In this document: positions 1 through 11,750 of the stretch, one piece after another
How positions within the stretch are numbered: the first letter of the stretch is position 1
Layout: the number at the start of each line of letters is the position of its first letter
DNA from: Streptosporangiaceae bacterium NEAU-GS5
Lineage (GTDB): Bacteria; Actinomycetota; Actinomycetes; Streptosporangiales; Streptosporangiaceae
NCBI GenBank assembly: GCA_017592665.1
Contig: JAGFNW010000014.1
Location: forward strand, 124,001 to 188,000
DNA: 64,000 bases
Direction of reading: 5' to 3'
Translations under genes and position numbers: made by a program
Notes under the pieces: model-generated
The model's database searches: none
What the model was told of the DNA's origin: nothing
What the model saw: only the letters and a program-made list of their open reading frames with translations

Positions 1-284
1 GGCCCGACTCCGAGGATGTGCCCGATCAGGCCGGCCCGCAGGCGGGCCGTGGCCCGTGCGCCGCTCGCCCCGCTCGCCCACACCTCGGCCACCTCGGTCG
101 CCACGATGCCGGCCACCACGGCCGCGCACATGCGCCACGTGCCGGGAGCGTCGATGGCCCGCCCCAGCGTGTACGGCAGGGCCACCCGGAGGGCCGCCCC
201 GCCGACCGCCGTGAACAAGAGCACGGGCAGCCACGGGCCGCCCAGCCGGACGGTCCTCGCGACGAGCTGATCCGCGGGCCCCAT
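1..284 (-). CDS. ABC exporter of the lanthipeptide operon (N-terminus only, partial)
   Basis: The first 94 codons of a minus-strand gene that leaves the window at base 1. The start ATG at 284-282 follows GGGAGG at good spacing. The visible part reads as the N-terminal membrane region of an ABC exporter: a hydrophobic stretch (LPVLLFTAVGG), then LPYTLGRAID, a pattern common in type I exporters of the RamA/RamB (AmfA/AmfB) kind, then a second hydrophobic helix. The nucleotide-binding domain lies outside the window. It sits directly downstream of the lanthipeptide precursor, in the same order as ramC-ramS-ramA/B, so it most likely exports the mature peptide. The role rests mainly on context, because the ATPase motifs cannot be seen. 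Confidence 0.7.
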   Translation of the reverse strand, partial: MGPADQLVARTVRLGGPWLPVLLFTAVGGAALRVALPYTLGRAIDAPGTWRMCAAVVAGIVATEVAEVWASGASGARATARLRAGLIGHILGVG

Positions 285-314: not shown

Positions 315-344
315 GCCGGGTCCCGGCGAAGACCGGGACCCGGC
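315..344 (-). terminator. Perfect 12-bp hairpin between precursor and exporter genes
   Basis: The arms GCCGGGTCCCGG (315-326) and CCGGGACCCGGC (333-344) are exact inverted repeats around a 6-base loop. There is no T-run on either side. The hairpin lies 17 bases after the precursor stop and 30 bases before the exporter start. Such a position in lantibiotic operons usually gives partial termination or transcript protection, so that precursor mRNA exceeds exporter mRNA. That function is inferred. Confidence 0.7.
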
Positions 345-361
345 ATCTTTCCTCACTACTT

Positions 362-499
362 TTAGTGGCAGAGAAGCAGGCTGACGTTGCTCGGCGTGAC
401 CGAAGCGCAGCCGAGGACGGTCAGCGTGCTGCCGCCACCGCCGTTGCCGTGGCCGTAGCCGCCGGGCGTCTCCATGCCCTGCAGGTCGAGAAGTGCCAT
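362..499 (-). CDS. lanA: Class III lanthipeptide precursor peptide (SapB/labyrinthopeptin-like)
   Basis: A 45-residue peptide too small for ordinary ORF calling. The leader begins MALLDLQGMETP, and the LLDLQ segment matches the class III leader motif recognised by LanKC enzymes (SapB has LFDLQSMETP). A Gly-rich linker (GGYGHGNGGGG) follows. The C-terminal part holds two copies of the labionin/lanthionine pattern Ser-x-x-Ser/Thr-x-x-x-Cys: STLTVLGC at residues 24-31 and SNVSLLLC at 37-44, then a terminal His. The second resembles the SLLLC block of SapB. An AAGGAGGT ribosome site overlaps the lanKC stop codon; the stop and this ATG are 3 bases apart, so translation is probably coupled. The exact leader cleavage point cannot be read from sequence. 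Confidence 0.93.
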   Translation of the reverse strand: MALLDLQGMETPGGYGHGNGGGGSTLTVLGCASVTPSNVSLLLCH

Positions 500-502
500 G
501 TT

Positions 503-3064
503 TTACACCTCCTTCCGGAATTCGATGGCCGCCCGCCTGGCATCGACGCGCGCCGGAGACTCCGCGGTCACGGCTCCGGTCGGCGATGTGCCGTGCGGCT
601 GGACGAACGGGAGGTGCGCCGGCGTGTCGTGACACGCGCCGCCCCAGGCGTACAGGACTCCGGCCGTGCCGGTCGCGAAGTCCATCGAGAGCCGCAGCAG
701 CTGGTCGCCGGGAAAGGCGACGCCGCCGCGGAAGTTGAGAGCGTGCCAGCGCAGGCCGTCGAGCAGCGCGCCGACCGGGCGGCCGAGCGCCGCGGCCGCC
801 GCGATGATCCCGGCGCGGCCCGTGAACAGGCCGGGCTGGACGAAGAAGCCGGCGTCGGTGATCGGCAGGATGTCGCGCAGCGCCTGCCGGAATCCCTCGT
901 CCTCGCGATGGCTCAGGTAGCGGGCGAGGACCAGGGCGATGCCCGCCGAGCCCTCGTCGAGGTAGGGGAGGGTCCGCCAGCCCTGGTTCACCTGGAGGGA
1001 TCCGTCCTGCCCGGGAGCGCAGCGGCGGACGTCCTGGCGGAGCGCGGTCGCGGCGAGGTCGAGCAGGGCGGTGTCCGCGGTGGCCTCGTAGGCGTGCAGG
1101 AAGAGCAGGGCCTGCCCGGCCGAGCCGTACATCAGCCCGGCTCGCGGCTCGCGGCCGCCGCTGATCTCGGAGACCTCGGCGGGGAGGCGGTCGGCGCAGA
1201 TCTCTACGGCCCGCAGCGCCTCTTCGACGCGGCCGAACCGCAGCAGGTTGAGCCCCACTCCGGCGACCCCCGAGTACAGGGAGATGTCGAGGGACTCCCA
1301 CTCCTCGCCCGGGCAGGCGTCGATGAGATCGAGCGCGTCCTCGGTGTGGCCGAGGCCGTCGAGGACGTACGCCACGCCGTGCAGGCCGTCGTAGAAGCCG
1401 GCGGGAGTGCCCGGATCGCGCCGGAGCGCGCGTTTGCGCAGCCATTCTTCGTGGTCTTCGGAGCGCCCGGCCCCGGTCGCGGCGAGCGCGTGGAGGACGC
1501 CGGCCGCGCCGTACGCGAGGCTGATGCCTCCTCCGGGCCGGAACTGGGCGGGATCGCCGGGGAAGAGCCGGTCGTCGCGGTCGAGGGTGGCGGCCGCGAG
1601 GATCGACCGGGCCAGCTGGTCGCGGATCAGCGGCCAGCGCGTCGCGGGCTCGACCGGCGAGCCCGTCTCCGCGCCGAGGAGCGTGCCGACCGCCTCGTCC
1701 AGGGATCCGGCCGGGAACGTCTCGGACACCATCCGGGCCAGCTGCACGCTCTTGGCCCGGTCGAGGCCGAGCATGATGGTCAGCTGCGGCGCGAACATGC
1801 CGATCCGGAGGCAGGCGAGCGCGTAGCGGTCGGTGTCGAGGCCGCGCCGATCAGGCGGCGGGGAGAAGGCCGGGTGCCCGAGGACCGCCCGCGCCTGGTC
1901 GGAGGCCAGGCTGGCCGCCTCGAAGTCGATCAGCACCAGCCGGTCGTCGGCGGTGACCAGCACGTTGTTGGGGTGCAGGTCGCCGAAGACGACCCCGCGG
2001 GAGTGCAGCGCCGCAACCGCGCGCTCGACCTTCTCGATCATTGACAGGGCCCAGGACGCGTACTGCTCGACCTGCTCGGCGGTCCGGCCGGCCCGCGTCA
2101 GGGGATAGCGGTGGACGAGCTGCCGCTGCAGCGGATTTCCGTCGACGAACTCCAGCGCCAGGAACTCGTGCTCGCCGACCAGGTGGTGTCCGAGGACGCG
2201 AGGCACGCAGTCGAGCCCGGCGAGCCGGAGGAGGATGTCGCGCTCGTGCGCCAGGCGGGCGACCGCGTCGCGCCCCGACGCGTCCAGGCCCGCGTGTGGA
2301 CGCGCCTCCTTCAGCACCACGCGGGTCCCCTCCGCGTCGCGGGCCAGATAGACCCCGCCGCCGTTGGAGAAGTGCAGGACGCTCTCGATCGAGTAGGGCA
2401 AGGCTTCCGTGGTGACCGAATTGCGTGCCTCCAGGTGAGGCCGCAGGAAATCGGGCAGGGGAACCCACGGCGGGGTGGCGAAGGTGGTGCCGCGCACGTC
2501 GGGCACGAGCCGCCCCTCGCCGTCCTCCATGGCGTAGACCCGCTCACCCGACTCGTCGACGACATAGCGCTCGGCGAAGCCGCCATATCGGACGAACAGC
2601 GGGCCGGAGCCGTAGCGGAGATCGCTCAGGATGTACGGCCCTTGGACGCCGCGCAGCAGGCCGTCGAGGTCGGCCAGGGTCCGGCGCAGCCGCTCCTGGT
2701 CGACCGGGTAGATCGTGACCAGCTTGCCGCTGGATCCGCGCGGCGCCGACTTGGCGTTCTGCATGACCAGGACCTGCGGGCCGCGCAGGAACTTGAAGGC
2801 CAGGCCGCGCGGCACGCAGTAGTCCCACACGGCGTCGAGCACCCGCTCGGCGTCGCCGGCGCGGGCCGACACGTGGATCTTCCAGCCTTGCTTGGGCAGC
2901 CGGCCCGGCGGGCCGTAGTGCATCCACGTGTCGCTCGCCTGATGGGCCCACCCGTTCGGCGTGGGCCGGGAGCCGTGCGGAAAGTCGAAGTGCCCGTTTC
3001 GGCCGGGCGTGTCGTAGAACAGCGGATCGGTGAGGCAGAATAACTCGTGCGAAGAATTGTTCAC
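503..3064 (-). CDS. lanKC: Class III lanthipeptide synthetase LanKC (RamC/AmfT-like)
   Basis: An 853-residue enzyme that phosphorylates Ser/Thr of the precursor, eliminates phosphate and cyclises with Cys. Order seen: N-terminal lyase region (about 1-210, with FYDTP and the conserved CVPRGLAFKFLRG block), a protein-kinase-like domain (about 225-480; GGGVYLARD, VVLKEARPH with the ATP Lys, FGDLHPNNVLV with the catalytic Asp, LIDFEAA in place of DFG), and a LanC-like C-terminal domain (about 500-820; GLMYGSAG, LDEGSAGIAL, GTAGVLYAWGGAC). The Cys-His-Gly zinc site of class I/II/IV cyclases is absent, which separates class III from class IV. I chose the GTG at 3064 because GCGGAGG lies 7 bases upstream and homologues begin near FCLTDPLFYDTP; a longer reading to 3121 has no such site. 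First gene of the operon. Confidence 0.93.
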   Translation of the reverse strand: MNNSSHELFCLTDPLFYDTPGRNGHFDFPHGSRPTPNGWAHQASDTWMHYGPPGRLPKQGWKIHVSARAGDAERVLDAVWDYCVPRGLAFKFLRGPQVLVMQNAKSAPRGSSGKLVTIYPVDQERLRRTLADLDGLLRGVQGPYILSDLRYGSGPLFVRYGGFAERYVVDESGERVYAMEDGEGRLVPDVRGTTFATPPWVPLPDFLRPHLEARNSVTTEALPYSIESVLHFSNGGGVYLARDAEGTRVVLKEARPHAGLDASGRDAVARLAHERDILLRLAGLDCVPRVLGHHLVGEHEFLALEFVDGNPLQRQLVHRYPLTRAGRTAEQVEQYASWALSMIEKVERAVAALHSRGVVFGDLHPNNVLVTADDRLVLIDFEAASLASDQARAVLGHPAFSPPPDRRGLDTDRYALACLRIGMFAPQLTIMLGLDRAKSVQLARMVSETFPAGSLDEAVGTLLGAETGSPVEPATRWPLIRDQLARSILAAATLDRDDRLFPGDPAQFRPGGGISLAYGAAGVLHALAATGAGRSEDHEEWLRKRALRRDPGTPAGFYDGLHGVAYVLDGLGHTEDALDLIDACPGEEWESLDISLYSGVAGVGLNLLRFGRVEEALRAVEICADRLPAEVSEISGGREPRAGLMYGSAGQALLFLHAYEATADTALLDLAATALRQDVRRCAPGQDGSLQVNQGWRTLPYLDEGSAGIALVLARYLSHREDEGFRQALRDILPITDAGFFVQPGLFTGRAGIIAAAAALGRPVGALLDGLRWHALNFRGGVAFPGDQLLRLSMDFATGTAGVLYAWGGACHDTPAHLPFVQPHGTSPTGAVTAESPARVDARRAAIEFRKEV

Positions 3065-3240: not shown

Positions 3241-6200
3241 GTGGTAGAACCCATGGACGGGCGCAGGGCCGAGCTCATCGAGGCTGCCCAGGCGCGCTGG
3301 ATCGCCGCTCTGACCGATCTGGGCGGCCGCAACACATTGCTGTACTACAAGGATCGCCGCGCCGGGACGCTGGATCTTGCGCTGGCCGATCGGGCGGCTG
3401 TCGACAAGTTCCTGCGAACCGGATCTATCCGGCTTACCCGGCTATTCTCCGACGTGGATATACGCGCTGACGCGATTCGCCGCGTTCAGACCATTCACCG
3501 TAAAGCGCGCGAACTACTCGAAGAGCGGGGCATCCGGGCCGGATATCTGGCCACCGGGATGGCCCGCTGGGACGAGCTTTTCCTCGAACCGGCGGCGCCC
3601 GTGATGCTGCGCGGCCTGACCATCACGCCGACCCGGGCCCGGCACGACGACTTCGAGCTCGTCCTCGACGATGAAGAAGAACTCAATCCGGTCCTGCTGC
3701 ACAAACTCGCGACCGTTTACGGCGTCGACTGGGAGCAGGCCAAGACCTCGGGCGAGGTGCCCGGCTTCGAGATCGCCGACCGCCTGGTGATCGGCACCTT
3801 CACCTACGCCAAGCTGCCCATGGTCCGCGACATGCAGGCGGCGGGGGAGCTGCTGGCCGACAGCGACATCGTGGCGGCCATCGCCGGCGATCCCGAGGCG
3901 CAGGAGCTGCTGTCCGCCGAGGCCGCGATGACCATGGACGACTCGCCCGAGTCCGACTACTCCGTGCTCGACGCCGACTCCTCCCAGCGCAGCGCCATCG
4001 ACACGGTTCTGTCGGGGCGCAGCCTGGTCATCCACGGGCCGCCCGGCACCGGCAAGAGCCAGACCATCGCCAACCTCATCGCCGCGCTGGTGGCCCGGGG
4101 CCGTAAGACGCTGTTCGTGGCCGAGAAGCGGGCCGCCATCGACGCGGTCCTGTCGCGGCTGAAGGGCGCCGGGCTCGGCGACATGGTCATCGACATCCAC
4201 GAGGGCACCCGCGACCGGCAGCGCATCGCCAAGGACCTCGGCGGCACCCTCGGCCAGGCCGAAAAGGTCGTCGAGGCCCGCGACGACGGCACCCAGCGCC
4301 GCCTTGCCGACCGGCAGCGCAGGTTGAAACAGCACGTCGGCGCCCTGCACGAGGTGCACGAGCCGTGGGGGGTGACCGCCTTCCAGGTCCAGTCGGCGTT
4401 GCTCGGCGTGCCGTCCGAGGCGCGCACCCCGGTGCGGGTGACCGCGCCCATCGACCGCGAGGCGGCCGACCAGATCCGCGACGACCTCCGCGAGTTCGCC
4501 CACCTGGGCGGGTTCACGCTGCGCCCGCGGGAGACCCCCTGGTACGGCGCGGCCCTCCGGACGCCCGCCGACGCCCGTCGCGCGGGGGACCTGGTCTCCC
4601 GGCTGACCACGTCGACCCTGCCGATGCTCGTGGAACGCGTGCGACGCGCCTGCGAGGAGCTCGGCCTCATGCCTCCCGCCACCCACCCCTCCCGCGTCGC
4701 CGTCCTGGAGCTGCTTTCGGGCATCGCCCACACCCAGCAGGTCCTGGCGCCCATCGTCTACGTGTCCGACCCGGTGAAGCTGGCCCAGGCGTACGGCGAC
4801 GGGGTCGGGTTACGCGAGGGCTTCCGGCTGCGCCGCCAGGCGCAGGCGCTGTGGACCGGCCCGCCCAAGCCGTCGAAGGAGGATCTGCACGCCGCGCTGG
4901 CCTCGGCCGCGGCCCAGCTCGACGCGTGGGAATACCTGCGGACGGGCCCGGGCTCGCCGCGCCTGCCCGGCGGGTTCGCCGACCTGATGGCCCTCGCCGA
5001 CCAGGCCGCCCGCGACCTCGCCACGCTGCGGGCGATGGTCCGCGTGCCGGACGACCCGACCGAGACGCTGGCCGCGCTCGCCGCCGACCAGGACACGCCG
5101 TGGAAACTGCCCCGGCTCTACGAGCTCGGCGTCAGATTCGACGGCTACGGCCTCAGCCCGCTCCTCGACGACCTGGCCCGCCGCGGGGCCGGCCCCGACC
5201 TGGCCGGGCACGCCTTCGACCACGCCTGGTATTCGACCGTGCTCGACCACATCCGGGTCCGCGACCCCCACTACGCCGCCCATCGCGGCGACGCGCTCGA
5301 CGAGATCGCCGGTGACTTCCAGGAGGCCGACGTACGGCACCTGCGCACCAACCGGACACGCGTACGGCACGCCTGGGCGGGGCGGGTGCGCGAGGCCGAA
5401 GACCGGCACCCGCTGCAGGCCCGCGTCATCCGCAAGCAGGCGGCGCTGCGCCGCGGGCACCTGCCGCTACGGCGGCTGCTCGACCAGGCGGGCGACGTGC
5501 TCTTCGCGGTGAAGCCCTGCTGGGCCATGTCGCCGCTCATGGTCAGCCAGGTGCTGCCGCCGGCCCGCCTGTTCGACGTGGTCATCTTCGACGAGGCCAG
5601 CCAGGTCGTACCGGCGGACGCCATTCCGTCGATCATGCGCGGCCACCAGATCGTGGTGGCCGGCGACGACCGGCAGCTGCCGCCCACCAACTTCTTCCGC
5701 CAGGTGGGCGACGACCAGGTCGGCGACGACGACGAGGAGGCCGACGAGCTGGTCAGCTTCGACGCCGGATTCGAGTCGGTCCTCGACGCGCTCCGCCCGC
5801 TGCTGCCGACCTGCCCGCTCACCTGGCACTACCGGAGCCGCGACGAGCGGCTCGTGGCGTTCTCCAACTCGCGGATCTACGGCGGCGCGCTCACCACGTT
5901 CCCCGGGGTGTCGCGCGACGACTGCCTGCGGCACGTGGTCGTGGCCCAGACCCCGGGGCGCGGCCAGGAGGCGTCGGTCACGGCCGAGGTCGACCGGGTG
6001 GCCGAGCTCGTGCTCGAGCACGCCCGCACGCGCCCGGACGAGTCGCTCGGCGTGATCGCGCTGGGCATGCGGCACGCCGAGCGCATCGACGCCGCGCTTC
6101 GCGCCCGGATCACCCCGGACGTGGAGGCCTTCTTCGGAGAGGACACGGCCGAGCCGTTCTTCGTGAAGAACCTCGAGCGCGTCCAGGGCGACGAGCGCGA

Positions 6201-6960
6201 CGCGATCATCTTGTCCATCGGCTACGGCAAGCACCCCGACGGCCGGATGCGCTACCAGTGGGGCCCGCTGCTCCGCGACGGCGGCGAGCGGCGGCTGAAC
6301 GTCGCCGCGACCCGCGCCAAGCGGCGGCTGACGCTGGTGAGCTCCTTCTCCAGCCACGACGTGGACCCCGACCGGCTGACGAAGGCGGGCGCCCGGCTGC
6401 TGGCCGAATACCTGGAGTACGCCGGATCGGGCGGCACGGCCGTCGAGGCGGGCGGAATCGGCGCGGCGAACGACCTCGACCCGTTCCTCGCCGACGTCCG
6501 CGACCGGCTGGCGAAGTTCGGCATCAGCGTCGTTCCCCAATATGGCGTGGGCGGCTACCGGGTGGACTTCGCCGCCACCCATCCGGACGACCCCAGCCGG
6601 ATGGTGCTGGCCATCGAGACCGACGGGGTCTCCTACCGGGCCTCACGCAGCGTCCGCGACCGCGACCGGCTGCGCAAGGAGCACCTGGAAAGGCTCGGCT
6701 GGAGTTTCCACCGGCTGTGGTCCACCAACTGGTTCCACAACCCGCAAGCCGAGCTGGCCAAGCTCCGAGCCGCGTTCGACCAGGCCGTGGCGCATAGCCC
6801 GGCCGTCTCGGAGCCTGACCCGCCCGGCGCACCCACCGGGGCCTCGCGGCCCGGGGGTGAGCTGCCCGGGAGTGGGCTGCCTTTGGAGCAGTCTGTGCGT
6901 GAAGGGCCTGGAGGTGAGCTCGACCTGCGCGGACATGGTCCGATCGAGCCCCGATATTGA
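3241..6960 (+). CDS. DUF4011 / superfamily I helicase / Vsr-like nuclease protein
   Basis: A 1239-residue protein. The N-terminus (about 1-230) matches DUF4011. An AAA_11/AAA_12-type SF1 helicase follows: Walker A GPPGTGKSQT near residue 265, Walker B/motif II DEASQ near 783, motif III GDDRQLPPT, and motif VI NVAATRAKRR near 1020, with a long helical insertion between motifs I and II. The C-terminus (about 1080-1200) has the Vsr/DUF559-like endonuclease pattern VDFA...AIETDG...RDRDRLRKEHLERLGW. The all-in-one helicase plus nuclease design is typical of genome-defence proteins that translocate on and cut foreign DNA, but no assay is implied. The GTG start has no clear ribosome site; ATG at 3253 is an alternative. 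It is divergent from the lanthipeptide operon and convergent with the GTPase pair. Confidence 0.85.
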   Translation: MVEPMDGRRAELIEAAQARWIAALTDLGGRNTLLYYKDRRAGTLDLALADRAAVDKFLRTGSIRLTRLFSDVDIRADAIRRVQTIHRKARELLEERGIRAGYLATGMARWDELFLEPAAPVMLRGLTITPTRARHDDFELVLDDEEELNPVLLHKLATVYGVDWEQAKTSGEVPGFEIADRLVIGTFTYAKLPMVRDMQAAGELLADSDIVAAIAGDPEAQELLSAEAAMTMDDSPESDYSVLDADSSQRSAIDTVLSGRSLVIHGPPGTGKSQTIANLIAALVARGRKTLFVAEKRAAIDAVLSRLKGAGLGDMVIDIHEGTRDRQRIAKDLGGTLGQAEKVVEARDDGTQRRLADRQRRLKQHVGALHEVHEPWGVTAFQVQSALLGVPSEARTPVRVTAPIDREAADQIRDDLREFAHLGGFTLRPRETPWYGAALRTPADARRAGDLVSRLTTSTLPMLVERVRRACEELGLMPPATHPSRVAVLELLSGIAHTQQVLAPIVYVSDPVKLAQAYGDGVGLREGFRLRRQAQALWTGPPKPSKEDLHAALASAAAQLDAWEYLRTGPGSPRLPGGFADLMALADQAARDLATLRAMVRVPDDPTETLAALAADQDTPWKLPRLYELGVRFDGYGLSPLLDDLARRGAGPDLAGHAFDHAWYSTVLDHIRVRDPHYAAHRGDALDEIAGDFQEADVRHLRTNRTRVRHAWAGRVREAEDRHPLQARVIRKQAALRRGHLPLRRLLDQAGDVLFAVKPCWAMSPLMVSQVLPPARLFDVVIFDEASQVVPADAIPSIMRGHQIVVAGDDRQLPPTNFFRQVGDDQVGDDDEEADELVSFDAGFESVLDALRPLLPTCPLTWHYRSRDERLVAFSNSRIYGGALTTFPGVSRDDCLRHVVVAQTPGRGQEASVTAEVDRVAELVLEHARTRPDESLGVIALGMRHAERIDAALRARITPDVEAFFGEDTAEPFFVKNLERVQGDERDAIILSIGYGKHPDGRMRYQWGPLLRDGGERRLNVAATRAKRRLTLVSSFSSHDVDPDRLTKAGARLLAEYLEYAGSGGTAVEAGGIGAANDLDPFLADVRDRLAKFGISVVPQYGVGGYRVDFAATHPDDPSRMVLAIETDGVSYRASRSVRDRDRLRKEHLERLGWSFHRLWSTNWFHNPQAELAKLRAAFDQAVAHSPAVSEPDPPGAPTGASRPGGELPGSGLPLEQSVREGPGGELDLRGHGPIEPRY

Positions 6961-7203: not shown

Positions 7204-8208
7204 TCACAGGTTCGGAGGGAGTGCGGGGTCGGCCAGGTCGAAAACCTTCCGGTCGCCGTCCCAGATGAGGAAGTTGCCGAGCTCGCGCATGACGGGCACG
7301 GGCACCTGGGACAGGCGGTCGACATCGCCGAGAAGCCGCTGGAATCGCGCGGCGGCGCCGAAGCCGAGCCGGTTCACGACCGCTACCATGATCCGCGTCA
7401 GGTTGTACCGGAACCGCGCCGAGCACGGCACCACACGGTGGTTGTCGCGGAGCCGGGCGAACACGTCCGCACGGTCGGGATAACGGTGCTGATACGCCTC
7501 GCAGACCTGCCTGCTGAAGTAGCCGCGATAACGGACGGTGTGGTCGTTGAAGGTCATCCGGTCGTCGGCCACGGAGAAGCCGCCGGGGTTGTAGGTGCTC
7601 GTCGTGAGGAAGTCCCCCCACGGGGCCAGGAACACCTCTTCGAAGTAACGGGCCCGCTCCTCCAGCTGCTCGTCCAGACGCAGGCTCGGTGTGAACGACC
7701 CCGAGTCGCCGTTCACGCTGAACACCCACGGCGGGGGGTGCAGCATGTCGGCCTTGGTCATCACGAACGTCAGCTTGTTGACCAGCCGCGCGCGGGTCGC
7801 CGGATCCGCCGTCTCGAGCAGCCGCCGAAGGCACAGCGCCTCGTAGGTGGTCGACCTGCTGTCGGCGTGGACGGCCCAGATGACCACGTCGCAGGCGAGC
7901 AGCTTGTCGGCGTACATCGTCATGTACTCCACGTCCGCGGCCGCCGACTCGCCGATGCCGGGCATGTCCCAGAAGACCAGCTGGTGGCCGTGCGCTCCGG
8001 GCAAGGTGATGGGCTCAGGTCTTCGGGTCGCCGGGCGGACGTCACCGATGGCCAGGTCAGTGCCGAAGAGGACGTTCAGAAGAGACGATTTGCCGGCGCC
8101 CGTCTGTCCGAGAACGGCCACAGATGGTCTCTTATTGGCCTCAATTTGGTATTTATTCCAAACGTCCATCTTGATGCGATTGAGTCGCGCGTTGGGGATC
8201 GACGGCAC
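7204..8208 (-). CDS. Era/YfjP-like (dynamin-related) GTPase
   Basis: A 334-residue P-loop GTPase. G1 is GQTGAGKSS (residues 34-42), a conserved Thr in switch I follows, G3 is DMPG (81-84), and G4 is TKAD near residue 150. The C-terminal 130 residues are helical and Arg-rich, without a KH domain, so it is not a classical ribosome-assembly Era. GTPases of this sort act in membrane or stress functions and some belong to bacterial immunity loci; the substrate is unknown. It is transcribed divergently from the BTAD regulator at 8307 and forms an operon with the 68-residue protein. Confidence 0.8.
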   Translation of the reverse strand: MPSIPNARLNRIKMDVWNKYQIEANKRPSVAVLGQTGAGKSSLLNVLFGTDLAIGDVRPATRRPEPITLPGAHGHQLVFWDMPGIGESAAADVEYMTMYADKLLACDVVIWAVHADSRSTTYEALCLRRLLETADPATRARLVNKLTFVMTKADMLHPPPWVFSVNGDSGSFTPSLRLDEQLEERARYFEEVFLAPWGDFLTTSTYNPGGFSVADDRMTFNDHTVRYRGYFSRQVCEAYQHRYPDRADVFARLRDNHRVVPCSARFRYNLTRIMVAVVNRLGFGAAARFQRLLGDVDRLSQVPVPVMRELGNFLIWDGDRKVFDLADPALPPNL

Positions 8209-8306: not shown

Positions 8307-11300
8307 GTGAGATTCGAGATCCGGGTTCTCGGACAGATCGAGGTGGTGGCCGACGGCGTCGTACGGCCACTGCATCCCCAGTCGGCCAAGGCGCTCTCCC
8401 TGCTCGTCGCCGCCGGGCGGCCGGTGTCGAGGAGCGCTCTCACCGAGGCGTTGTGGGAGCCCAGCGAGATCCCGGCGAGTGACGGGATCGCGCCGCTGAT
8501 CTCCCGCATCAAGGCCGCCCTGGCCGGCAGTGGGGTGAGTGTCGGTTCCAAACGCGGTTCCGGCACGTACGCGCTGGACGGCGATCCGCGCGAACTGGTG
8601 GACGCCTACCGGTTCGAGCGCGCCGTCGACGAGGCCGTGACCTCGCTTCGCGCCGGCGACGACGAAGGGGCGTTCGCCGCCCTTTCGGCCGCCGCCGCGC
8701 AGTGGCGGGGCAGGCCGTACGCGCTGTGGGGGGACGACCCTCCGGCCGCCTGCGGCGATCACGCCCGCCGCCTGGAGGCGGCGCGCGTCCGGCTGGTCCG
8801 GCACGTCGCCGAGATCGGCCTGCGGCTCGCCCGCTACGACGAGGCGACCGCGCTGCTCGCCGGTCCCGCCGGGGCCGGGCAGGGCGACGACGACCACGTG
8901 TGGCTGCTGGGCTTTCTGCGTACGCTGCGCGACGAGGGCTCGAGCTCGGCCGAGGAGGCCATCGAGCGCCGCCGCCAGCTGACGGGCACCTACGGCGGGA
9001 TCCTCGACCGGGCGCTCAAGCTGCAGAAACTGCACGACGACGGGATCGAGGTGCACCGCCCGCCCGACGGCATGGATCAGGACGTCCGCCAGCCCGAGGT
9101 CCCGGAGACCATGGTCGGCCGCGACGACGACCTCAGGGCGCTGCTCACGCTGCGCGAGCGGCTGCCCGGCCTGGTCGCCGTCGAGGGCGCGGCGGGCGCG
9201 GGAAAGAGCCGGTTGCTGGCCGAGCTCGCCCGGCGATCGGCGATCATCCGGCCGCACACGGTCGTGGTGAGCTGCCAGGCCGGCGGCGAGCTGCAGCCGT
9301 GGCGGGCCCTGACCGGCATCCTCTACGCGCGGCTGCAGCGCGACCCGACCACGGGCGACGACCCGCTGGACGACCGCACCAGCCACGGCACGCTCAACGA
9401 CTTCACCTCGGCCATGCCGGGATCGACGGCGGCCGAGGGTCACGAGCGGCTGCTGACGCTGCTGGCCGGCCTGATCCGCTGGGCCAGCCGCGGCGGCGGC
9501 CTGATCATCGCGTTCGACAACGCCGAGCTGCTCAGCAGCCAGGCCTGCGACCTGCTGCGCGAGGTCCGAAGGGAGCTGGGCGACCTGCCGGTCGGCTTCG
9601 TGCTGGCCGGCCGCCCCGAGCCCAAGGCCCCCTGGTGGCAGATCCGCGAGGTGGTGCGCACCCTGTGGCCGCTCGACTCGCCGGACGTGCGCGCCTGGCT
9701 GGGCGAGGTCTGGGGGCGCGAGCCGACCGACGCCGAGGTGTCGGCCGCGATCCGGCTGACCGGTGGCCTGCCGCGCCGCCTCTGCGAGGTGCGCGAGGCG
9801 GGCGGCGACCTCTACCTGCTGCCCGACCCCACCCGGCGGCCCGGCCCCGTGCCGCCCTGGCTCGCCGCGGCCGCGATCACCTGCGGTGGCGGCGACATCG
9901 ACGCCGAGCTCGTGGCCGCCATGCTCGGGATCGACCCGGCCGAGGCCGACCGGCAGCTCGGCGCGGCCGTGGCCAGCCGGGCCGTGCTGACCCACGGCGG
10001 CGGCCTGCGGTTCCGCTACGAGCTGTGGCGCGAAGACGTGCTGAACGCGCTCGCCGCCGACCCCGGCCTCGCCAGGCGGCTGAACCGCAAGGCCTTCGAG
10101 GTCCTCGACTATCGGCTGCGCATCGCCGAGCGGGTGACGGCCGACCTGCCGGTCCGGATGGCCGAGCACGCCCGCGCGGCCGGATCGGAGATGCCCGAGG
10201 AGCGGGTGGCCACCGCCTATCTCGCCGCCGCGCGCGCCGAGCAGGCCGCCTTCGCCAACGCCTCGGCCGAGAGCTGGGCCAGGCACGGCCTCCGGATGCG
10301 GTGCAGCCAGGCCACCCACTTCGGGTTGCTCATGGTCCTCGGCGACGCCCAGGGCGGCCAGGGCGACATGCACGCGGCCGGCGAGTGCTACCAGGAGGCC
10401 TACGACGTGGCGGCCGACCTGCCGCTGCTCCGCGCCCAGGCCGCCGTCCGGCTGGCCCGCCGCTGGTCCGACCCCGGCCAGCTCGACCAGCAGATCCTGA
10501 TGCTGCTCGACCAGGCGCTCGACGGGCTGGACGGGCTCGCCGACGACACGGCCACCGACCTCCGGGCCCAGCTCAGCGGGCATCTGGCGCACAAGGCCAC
10601 GATGGCCGTCAGCCCCGACCTGCTCACCGGGCGCAGCCGGCAGGGTCCCGAGCTGGCCCGCCGGACCTTGCGCGAGCTCCGGCCGGACGCGCCCGCCGAG
10701 GTCCGGTGCGAGGTGCTGAACGAGTGCCGCTGGGCGCTGTACGACCTCGCGCCGCCGAGCGCGCTGCTCAGCATCGACGAATGGCTGGGGGAGGCGGCCG
10801 CGGACGCCGGATCGGCCTACTTCGACAGCGAGGCGCTGATGGCGCTGGCCCTCGACCAGCTGCGGCTGGGCGTGCTCAACCCGGCCTTCGCCACGATCGA
10901 GAAGCACCGCCGCCAGATCACCCGGCACCCGCGCCCGCTCGGCGATTGGCTCCAGATGACCCTCGACACCCTGCTCGACCTGTGGCGCGGCCGCTTCGAC
11001 CAGGCCGAGGCGCGGCTGTTCGACGAGGCCGACAAGATCGTCTCCGAGCTGGAGACGGCCAACGTGCCGCCCGCCGACACCCTGCGGCAGACCTGGGACG
11101 CCCAGGTCTACTGGCTGTGGCGCGAGCGCGGTGAGTTGGCCCGGATCCAGCAGTCGGACATGGCCGGCCGGATCGAACGGCACGCCTTCTTCCCGATCTG
11201 GCCGGCGGCCATGGCCCTCGCCCTCGCCGAGACCGGCAACCCGGACGAGGCCATGTTCTGGCTCACGGCCCTGTCCGACGGCACGGGCGGGTTCGCGGTG

Positions 11301-11750
11301 TTCCCGCCGCATGGGTGGGGCGTGCCGGCGCTGGCGCTGGTGGCCGAGGCCTGCGGGGCCCTGGACGAGATCGGCGCGACGGGGGAGACGCTCACCGCGA
11401 TCGCCGCGCGCGCGTCGGAGTTACTCGACACGCACGAGCGGGAGATGGCGCTGGCCGGGTGGCCGGCCGTGCTCATGGGACCGGCCGCCCGGTTCGCCGG
11501 AGTGGCCGCCACGGTCGCCGGAGACCTGCCGCTCGCGCTGCGCCGCTTCCAGGTCGCGGCCGACCTTCTCGAAGGGTTCTCGCCGCCGCAGCACGCCCGG
11601 CTCAGGCACGACCACGGGCGCGCCCTGCTGCTGGCCGGCGACATGGAGCAGGGCCTGTCGGCCCTGCGGGTCGCCCAGCGCACGGCCAGGGACAAGGGGA
11701 TGGTGTCGCTGGAGGCGCGGGCGGCCCGCCTGATCGCCGAAAGCGGCTAA
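8307..11750 (+). CDS. BTAD-domain transcriptional regulator with AAA ATPase (large SARP/LAL-like)
   Basis: A 1147-residue regulator. A winged-helix DNA-binding region (residues 1-90) is followed by a bacterial transcriptional activator domain (about 95-245), then an ATPase with Walker A GAAGAGKSR (near 294-302) and LIIAFDNAE as Walker B, then a long helical TPR/MalT-like region to the end. Such proteins activate secondary-metabolism or stress genes, with ATP binding as the switch. The start is GTG at 8307, with only a weak ribosome site. The last 4 bases overlap the convergent oxidoreductase gene. The target is unknown; neighbouring candidates are the lanthipeptide operon and the GTPase pair. 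Confidence 0.87.
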   Translation: MRFEIRVLGQIEVVADGVVRPLHPQSAKALSLLVAAGRPVSRSALTEALWEPSEIPASDGIAPLISRIKAALAGSGVSVGSKRGSGTYALDGDPRELVDAYRFERAVDEAVTSLRAGDDEGAFAALSAAAAQWRGRPYALWGDDPPAACGDHARRLEAARVRLVRHVAEIGLRLARYDEATALLAGPAGAGQGDDDHVWLLGFLRTLRDEGSSSAEEAIERRRQLTGTYGGILDRALKLQKLHDDGIEVHRPPDGMDQDVRQPEVPETMVGRDDDLRALLTLRERLPGLVAVEGAAGAGKSRLLAELARRSAIIRPHTVVVSCQAGGELQPWRALTGILYARLQRDPTTGDDPLDDRTSHGTLNDFTSAMPGSTAAEGHERLLTLLAGLIRWASRGGGLIIAFDNAELLSSQACDLLREVRRELGDLPVGFVLAGRPEPKAPWWQIREVVRTLWPLDSPDVRAWLGEVWGREPTDAEVSAAIRLTGGLPRRLCEVREAGGDLYLLPDPTRRPGPVPPWLAAAAITCGGGDIDAELVAAMLGIDPAEADRQLGAAVASRAVLTHGGGLRFRYELWREDVLNALAADPGLARRLNRKAFEVLDYRLRIAERVTADLPVRMAEHARAAGSEMPEERVATAYLAAARAEQAAFANASAESWARHGLRMRCSQATHFGLLMVLGDAQGGQGDMHAAGECYQEAYDVAADLPLLRAQAAVRLARRWSDPGQLDQQILMLLDQALDGLDGLADDTATDLRAQLSGHLAHKATMAVSPDLLTGRSRQGPELARRTLRELRPDAPAEVRCEVLNECRWALYDLAPPSALLSIDEWLGEAAADAGSAYFDSEALMALALDQLRLGVLNPAFATIEKHRRQITRHPRPLGDWLQMTLDTLLDLWRGRFDQAEARLFDEADKIVSELETANVPPADTLRQTWDAQVYWLWRERGELARIQQSDMAGRIERHAFFPIWPAAMALALAETGNPDEAMFWLTALSDGTGGFAVFPPHGWGVPALALVAEACGALDEIGATGETLTAIAARASELLDTHEREMALAGWPAVLMGPAARFAGVAATVAGDLPLALRRFQVAADLLEGFSPPQHARLRHDHGRALLLAGDMEQGLSALRVAQRTARDKGMVSLEARAARLIAESG

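Follow-up and report, generated by a model that had tools for sequence, protein, structure and literature searches.

The 64,000-nucleotide stretch of Streptosporangiaceae bacterium NEAU-GS5 analysed here (the window) raises a question at its left edge: does a frame of 45 codons behind a lanthipeptide synthetase gene encode a precursor peptide and, if so, to which group does the product belong and how could its leader be removed? Leader cleavage is a poorly understood step in class III lanthipeptides.

The precursor gene and its operon

The frame is present in the window, translates as MALLDLQGMETPGGYGHGNGGGGSTLTVLGCASVTPSNVSLLLCH and, judged by its family scores, is a real gene encoding a class III lanthipeptide precursor. 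It reaches 59.2 bits against the RamS model of Pfam (cut-off 24.3) and 61.9 bits against the SapB/AmfS model of NCBIfam (cut-off 25), which bears out the original prediction of a two-ring class III precursor of 45 residues. By these same scores it belongs inside the curated SapB/AmfS (RamS) family, and the accompanying view that it is unlike SapB peptides has to be given up. The start codon lies 8 bases downstream of an AAGGAGG and 3 bases past the LanKC stop (Table 1). A search of the window's genome for further copies of the precursor found none, all other matches having E of 1 or more.

The window edge cuts the operon, leaving most of the exporters and the prolyl oligopeptidase (POP) outside, the latter beyond the view of the original prediction, and a 16 kb region around this left edge (L009) was used to see the operon beyond it. 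The order of the genes is LanKC, precursor, hairpin, two ABC half-exporters and POP. The complete LanKC (lyase-kinase-cyclase) expected beside the precursor is confirmed, with a full-length match of 1017.5 bits to the class III model (cut-off 575), as against 366 bits for the class IV model of NCBIfam, below the cut-off of the latter. It also has solved LanKC relatives, for example SalKC (9ugq, 268 bits). Based on a GGAGG at 3078-3074 and on the position where its relatives begin, its start is likely the GTG at 3064. As for the exporter foreseen nearby, an ABC exporter is indeed present, although only its first stretch lies within the window. The two half-exporter genes share a 4-base overlap in L009, and the start of the POP gene overlaps the end of the second. 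Both half-exporters match ABC_tran in Pfam, and a membrane domain is recognised only in the first; against the NCBIfam models shown, neither reached a cut-off, and the names RamA-like and RamB-like are given by gene place.

The hairpin between the precursor and the exporter genes folds at -40.3 kcal/mol (16 pairs, z -3.9), and a simple terminator scan finds it terminator-like on the plus strand only. A perfect stem of at least 10 bp within 100 bases past the last precursor occurs in 33/46 loci of the same type and in 21/46 other loci, and the mean longest stem at this place in the same-type loci is 11.5 bp, compared with 5.2 in shuffles. The hairpin is perhaps an attenuator that would reduce expression of the exporter relative to the precursor. 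Beyond the POP, on the same strand, the next gene encodes a ferritin-like protein (L009:6007-6969, minus strand, PF12902, 154 bits) and lies outside the window. Among the 92 loci listed, this query matched the window's own locus only, and the gene was not kept as a part of the system.

Table 1. Coordinates and supporting evidence for the features of the locus (positions are those of the window unless prefixed by C34).
Feature	Position	Strand	Evidence or remark
LanKC (lyase-kinase-cyclase)	503..3064	-	NF038151; RamC_N, Pkinase, LANC_like; listed ORF extends to 3121
Ribosome-binding site AAGGAGG	514-508 (508..514)	-	between LanKC stop and precursor ATG; read from sequence
Class III lanthipeptide precursor (FlaA/RamS type), 45 aa	362..499	-	ORF, PF19402, NF033212, relatives
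Leader Pro12 codon, putative prolyl oligopeptidase site	464..466	-	12 residues before ring-1 Ser
Ring-1 motif S24-T-L-T27-V-L-G-C31	407..430	-	S.LT...C in 60/60 distinct precursors of same core type
Inter-ring Pro36 codon	392..394	-	always 4 residues past ring-1 Cys; in 46/47 LanKC-clade loci
Ring-2 motif S37-N-V-S40-L-L-L-C44 and C-terminal His45	365..391	-	S..S...C-H in 60/60 + 52/52 named
GC hairpin	315..344	- (strand fold)	12 bp perfect; 16 pairs; between precursor and exporter genes
First ABC half-exporter, start (RamA-like by place)	1..284	-	remainder beyond window, from C34:122629
Second ABC half-exporter	C34:120983-122632, outside window		RamB-like by place
Prolyl oligopeptidase	C34:119055-121001, outside window		648 codons

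A constant core and its prolyl oligopeptidase

Relatives were collected in two sets that overlap in their genomes. The hand-picked set holds 101 loci, that is 100 regions chosen for spread, not at random, and the window's own locus. It was drawn from the 190/341 genomes of the family listed with a PF19402 match; some genomes gave two regions, and one region (L085) came from another family. The pattern search missed the precursor in 9/101 regions, which were re-read with a looser pattern and yielded no precursor of the window's type and no POP; false extra matches at L139, L145 and L175 were removed from the precursor counts. The named set holds the best 80 of at least 548 loci from a scan with a LanKC alignment. 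We call PSN a core with Pro-Ser-[NHA]-[LV]-Ser (in the named set, a longer core pattern). Such a core is found in 46/101 hand-picked loci and in 60 of the best 80 of at least 548, which gives the window's precursor relatives in 45 other loci of the family set and in 60 of the overlapping named set.

The 60 distinct PSN precursors all read S-x-L-T-x3-C-x4-P-S-x2-S-x3-C-H, and the middle ring position is invariably Thr in the first ring and Ser in the second. The constancy of Pro36 and of the ring-2 Pro-Ser within the class is partly circular, the class having been chosen on that string; the figures for Pro36 free of this circularity are the 46/47 loci of the LanKC clade together with all POP-bearing loci. 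The selection criterion did not bear on ring 1, on the spacing, or on the leader proline and the final His. A leader proline stands at positions 9-13 in 69/69 PSN precursors, and the final C-H is kept in 60/60 distinct and 52/52 named ones. Thus, the positions of both predicted Ser-x-x-Ser/Thr-x-x-x-Cys motifs recur in 60/60 distinct homologues of the core type, and the lack of Ser and Cys conservation that the original prediction had named as its own refutation is not what we observed. The Gly-rich linker and the final His had been rightly noted, but they do not stand as marks of oddity: from its recurrence, the C-terminal His is a mark of the subgroup, whereas the Gly/His linker differs in length between members, many of which have a Ser/Ala/Asp-rich one instead. 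The window has one precursor; L065, L066, L068, L069, L183 and others carry two to four in tandem, with near-identical cores.

The cluster POP matches PF00326 (172.8 bits) and PF02897 (156.8 bits) in Pfam, and among solved structures its best match is to the prolyl endopeptidase 2bkl (E 2.6e-114). Its Ser497, Asp580 and His613, which we take to be the catalytic triad, are invariant in the 15/15 sequences compared. In the hand-picked set, a POP accompanies 43/46 PSN loci, or 43/44 when only those flanked by at least 6 kb are counted; of the remaining three, two (L173 and L189) are cut short by a contig edge, and the third, L098, has sufficient flank. None was found in the 55 other loci of this set (46 loci, 43 of them with 6 kb of flank or more, plus the 9 re-read). 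In the named set, the POP is present in 57/57 PSN loci with at least 6 kb of flank and not visible in three with a short one, and it occurs in 0/20 other loci (nine of the HENS group described below, ten others, the flank being short in two of them, and one in which no precursor could be read). Conversely, every POP-bearing locus carries the PSN core (43 hand-picked, 57 named).

In two trees, the cluster POPs group in a single clade, separate from 13 non-cluster POPs that all come from the window's family (SH-aLRT 99 and 100); the 58 cluster POPs set against these 13, with a support of 100, include those of Kribbella. The window's genome holds three POP-like genes, one of them within the cluster, and 40/41 genomes tested have at least one POP, so clusters lacking the gene are not those of hosts lacking the enzyme. 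In the LanKC tree (90 rows, a quick method with SH-aLRT support only), all 46 PSN loci belong to a single group of 47 that lies beside the HENS group. The link between POP and core is strong in numbers, but it goes back to few independent events, roughly a single gain and one or two losses.

The exceptions are informative about which features go together. The sole non-PSN locus in the LanKC group of 47 is that of Planomonospora sp. ID67723 (L153, the same as L228): its precursor has a different core with neither Pro12 nor the inter-ring proline (a Pro stands at position 17), and its cluster has no POP, whereas a congener (G236, locus L073) has both prolines and the POP. This looks like an apparent natural loss of the POP together with both prolines. 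L098 has kept both prolines but, with enough flank, has no POP nearby; one POP lies elsewhere in its genome, and its exporter genes look frameshifted. The nearest group in the LanKC tree, which we call HENS (Microbispora, Sphaerisporangium and Planotetraspora; L077, L078, L079, L091-L093, L099, L138, L150-L152 and L187, and in the named set L234, L239, L243, L244, L246, L249, L252, L261 and L264), resembles the window in the Gly/His-rich linker of most members. It differs in its core, CTPHENSSLSxxCG, and in having no cluster POP (0/12, the flank of L152 being too short, and 0/9 named). These loci keep the leader Pro in 19/21 precursors and have a core Pro two residues past the ring-1 Cys, within CTPHENSS, so that neither the leader proline alone nor just any inter-ring proline predicts a POP, and both ideas were rejected.

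Placement in the flavipeptin group

Based on near-identical Kribbella precursors that lie beside a related POP, the window's precursor is best placed in the flavipeptin (FlaA/FlaP) group, within the SapB/AmfS family. One Kribbella precursor is 84% identical to it, and in both 11 residues separate the leader Pro from the ring-1 Ser, which puts this Pro at -12 if the core starts at that Ser. The flavipeptin system of Kribbella flavida (FlaA, FlaKC, FlaP) shares with the window a class III LanKC, a cluster POP and a leader Pro at -12; in this comparison, K. flavida enters by its description and the genus through other species among the best 80 of at least 548 loci. FlaP, whose source is K. flavida according to the accessible part of PMC5719810, is reported to cut after Pro(-12), efficiently only with the rings in place (PMC10885120, partial text). 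According to available passages of PMC8960859, class III precursors are accompanied by FlaP-like proteases in Kribbella and Streptomyces, and homologues of FlaA occur in Amycolatopsis and Jiangella; those of PMC5719810 mention Brevibacterium clusters that carry weak homologues of flaP and for the most part have no leader proline. As stated in an excerpt of PMC7268733, a POP occurs in class III clusters of Streptococcus, and actinobacterial clusters are usually without a protease.

The window differs from the Kribbella-type loci in gene order. In the latter, the POP directly follows the precursor in 18/18, the order precursor-POP-exporters being that of Kribbella (13), Jiangella (2), Labedaea, Nocardioides and Microlunatus, whereas the order precursor-exporters-POP is that of Streptosporangiaceae (34) and Thermomonosporaceae (5), in 39/39. 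In a class-wide sample, the precursor alignment matches 30/394 genomes, and the three loci outside the family that were examined (L300, L301 and L303, weaker matches with E 1e-7 or worse being excluded) each carry the core, followed directly by the POP. Labyrinthopeptin was also considered. The loci L159, L167 and L168, presumably of this type, share a class III LanKC and an LQ-type leader with the window, but they have WECC and CC-ending cores and a distant LanKC branch, and this identity was rejected.

The suggestion that the product is a new type of peptide is thus not upheld: its core, its leader proline and the neighbouring POP place the precursor in a published group, and the idea of a unique peptide was dropped in favour of what is, on present sequence evidence, an addition to the flavipeptins. 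In the accessible open-licence literature, supplements excluded, we found no published account of a flavipeptin-type group in Streptosporangiaceae. The same literature yielded no description of the exact constant core, of the spread through Streptosporangiaceae and Thermomonosporaceae with the second gene order, or of the joint absence of prolines and POP in Planomonospora, and these three points would be modest additions to it. Taken together, a single core type goes with a dedicated proline protease in several actinomycete families and in two gene orders. This provides naturally occurring substrates, as well as one apparent natural loss, for studying where and when the protease cuts.

Maturation and alternative readings

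We consider it probable that the gene encodes a flavipeptin-type precursor whose two rings are closed by the LanKC, whose leader is cut by the POP after Pro12, and whose product is exported by the ABC pair, perhaps as a SapB-like surfactant. In this model, the LanKC, guided by the LLDLQ leader, would phosphorylate and dehydrate the Ser/Thr residues of both S-x2-S/T-x3-C motifs and would then close two thioether (or labionin) rings; the sequence of the synthetase is described as a poor guide to ring type, lanthionine or labionin (PMC13380574, partial text). The cluster POP would cut after Pro12 (position -12), and other peptidases may shorten the Gly/His-rich tail that is left. As the metalloprotease AplP is also able to remove the flavipeptin leader (PMC12328550, in its accessible passages), the POP may not be the sole leader protease. 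The paired exporter would send the hydrophobic peptide out of the cell, where, by analogy with its relatives, it would probably serve as a surfactant in aerial growth.

That last step is where another reading has the most room. Many lanthipeptides are antimicrobial, and the product could be an antibiotic or another bioactive peptide instead of a morphogen. We hold this to be possible but doubtful, the nearest family models being those of morphogens (PMC13380574, partial text).

In another reading, which turns on the inter-ring proline, the protease could also cut at Pro36 and release two separate one-ring peptides from each precursor. Pro36 directly precedes ring 2 in 46/47 LanKC-clade loci and is present in every POP-bearing locus (43 hand-picked, 57 named), and the HENS cores, with their Pro placed two residues past the ring-1 Cys, have no POP. 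Nevertheless, this seems unlikely: the leader Pro is equally constant (69/69), a ring-bound Ser at P1' may block the cut, and the cleavage by FlaP is reported at the leader Pro(-12) in the available part of PMC10885120. It is similarly improbable that POP and Pro36 are partners, the protease splitting the finished peptide or destroying precursors with an unclosed second ring; if true, one gene would give two products or would contain a built-in quality check.

Less likely still is an ordinary SapB orthologue whose maturation involves no dedicated protease. The RamS and SapB/AmfS models match, the LLDLQ leader, the two S-x2-S/T-x3-C motifs, the LanKC and the paired ABC exporters are those of SapB/AmfS (RamS), and the order of the genes resembles ramCSAB. 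The latter operon is named in the accessible text of PMC13380574. However, the features of SapB proper, a second ring of the GDSSLSxTTC type and no cluster POP, are not those of the window's locus, which has P-S-N-x-S...C-H and a dedicated POP. In addition, the LanKC tree sets the SapB-type loci apart, and these have no POP (0/5, one with short flank). Finally, the frame is short (45 codons) in a GC-rich genome, but the family scores, the ribosome site, the conserved place after LanKC and the homologues in 45 and 60 loci leave chance with a negligible probability, and a chance ORF was rejected.

Returning to the favoured flavipeptin-type cluster, its neighbours inside the window are also of note. 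A helicase-like protein with DUF4011, AAA_11 and AAA_12 and an MTES_1575 nuclease domain (3241-6960, plus strand) adjoins it and looks like a defence protein. A dynamin-like GTPase (7204-8208, minus strand) and a BTAD/AAA regulator (8307-11750, plus strand) lie near.
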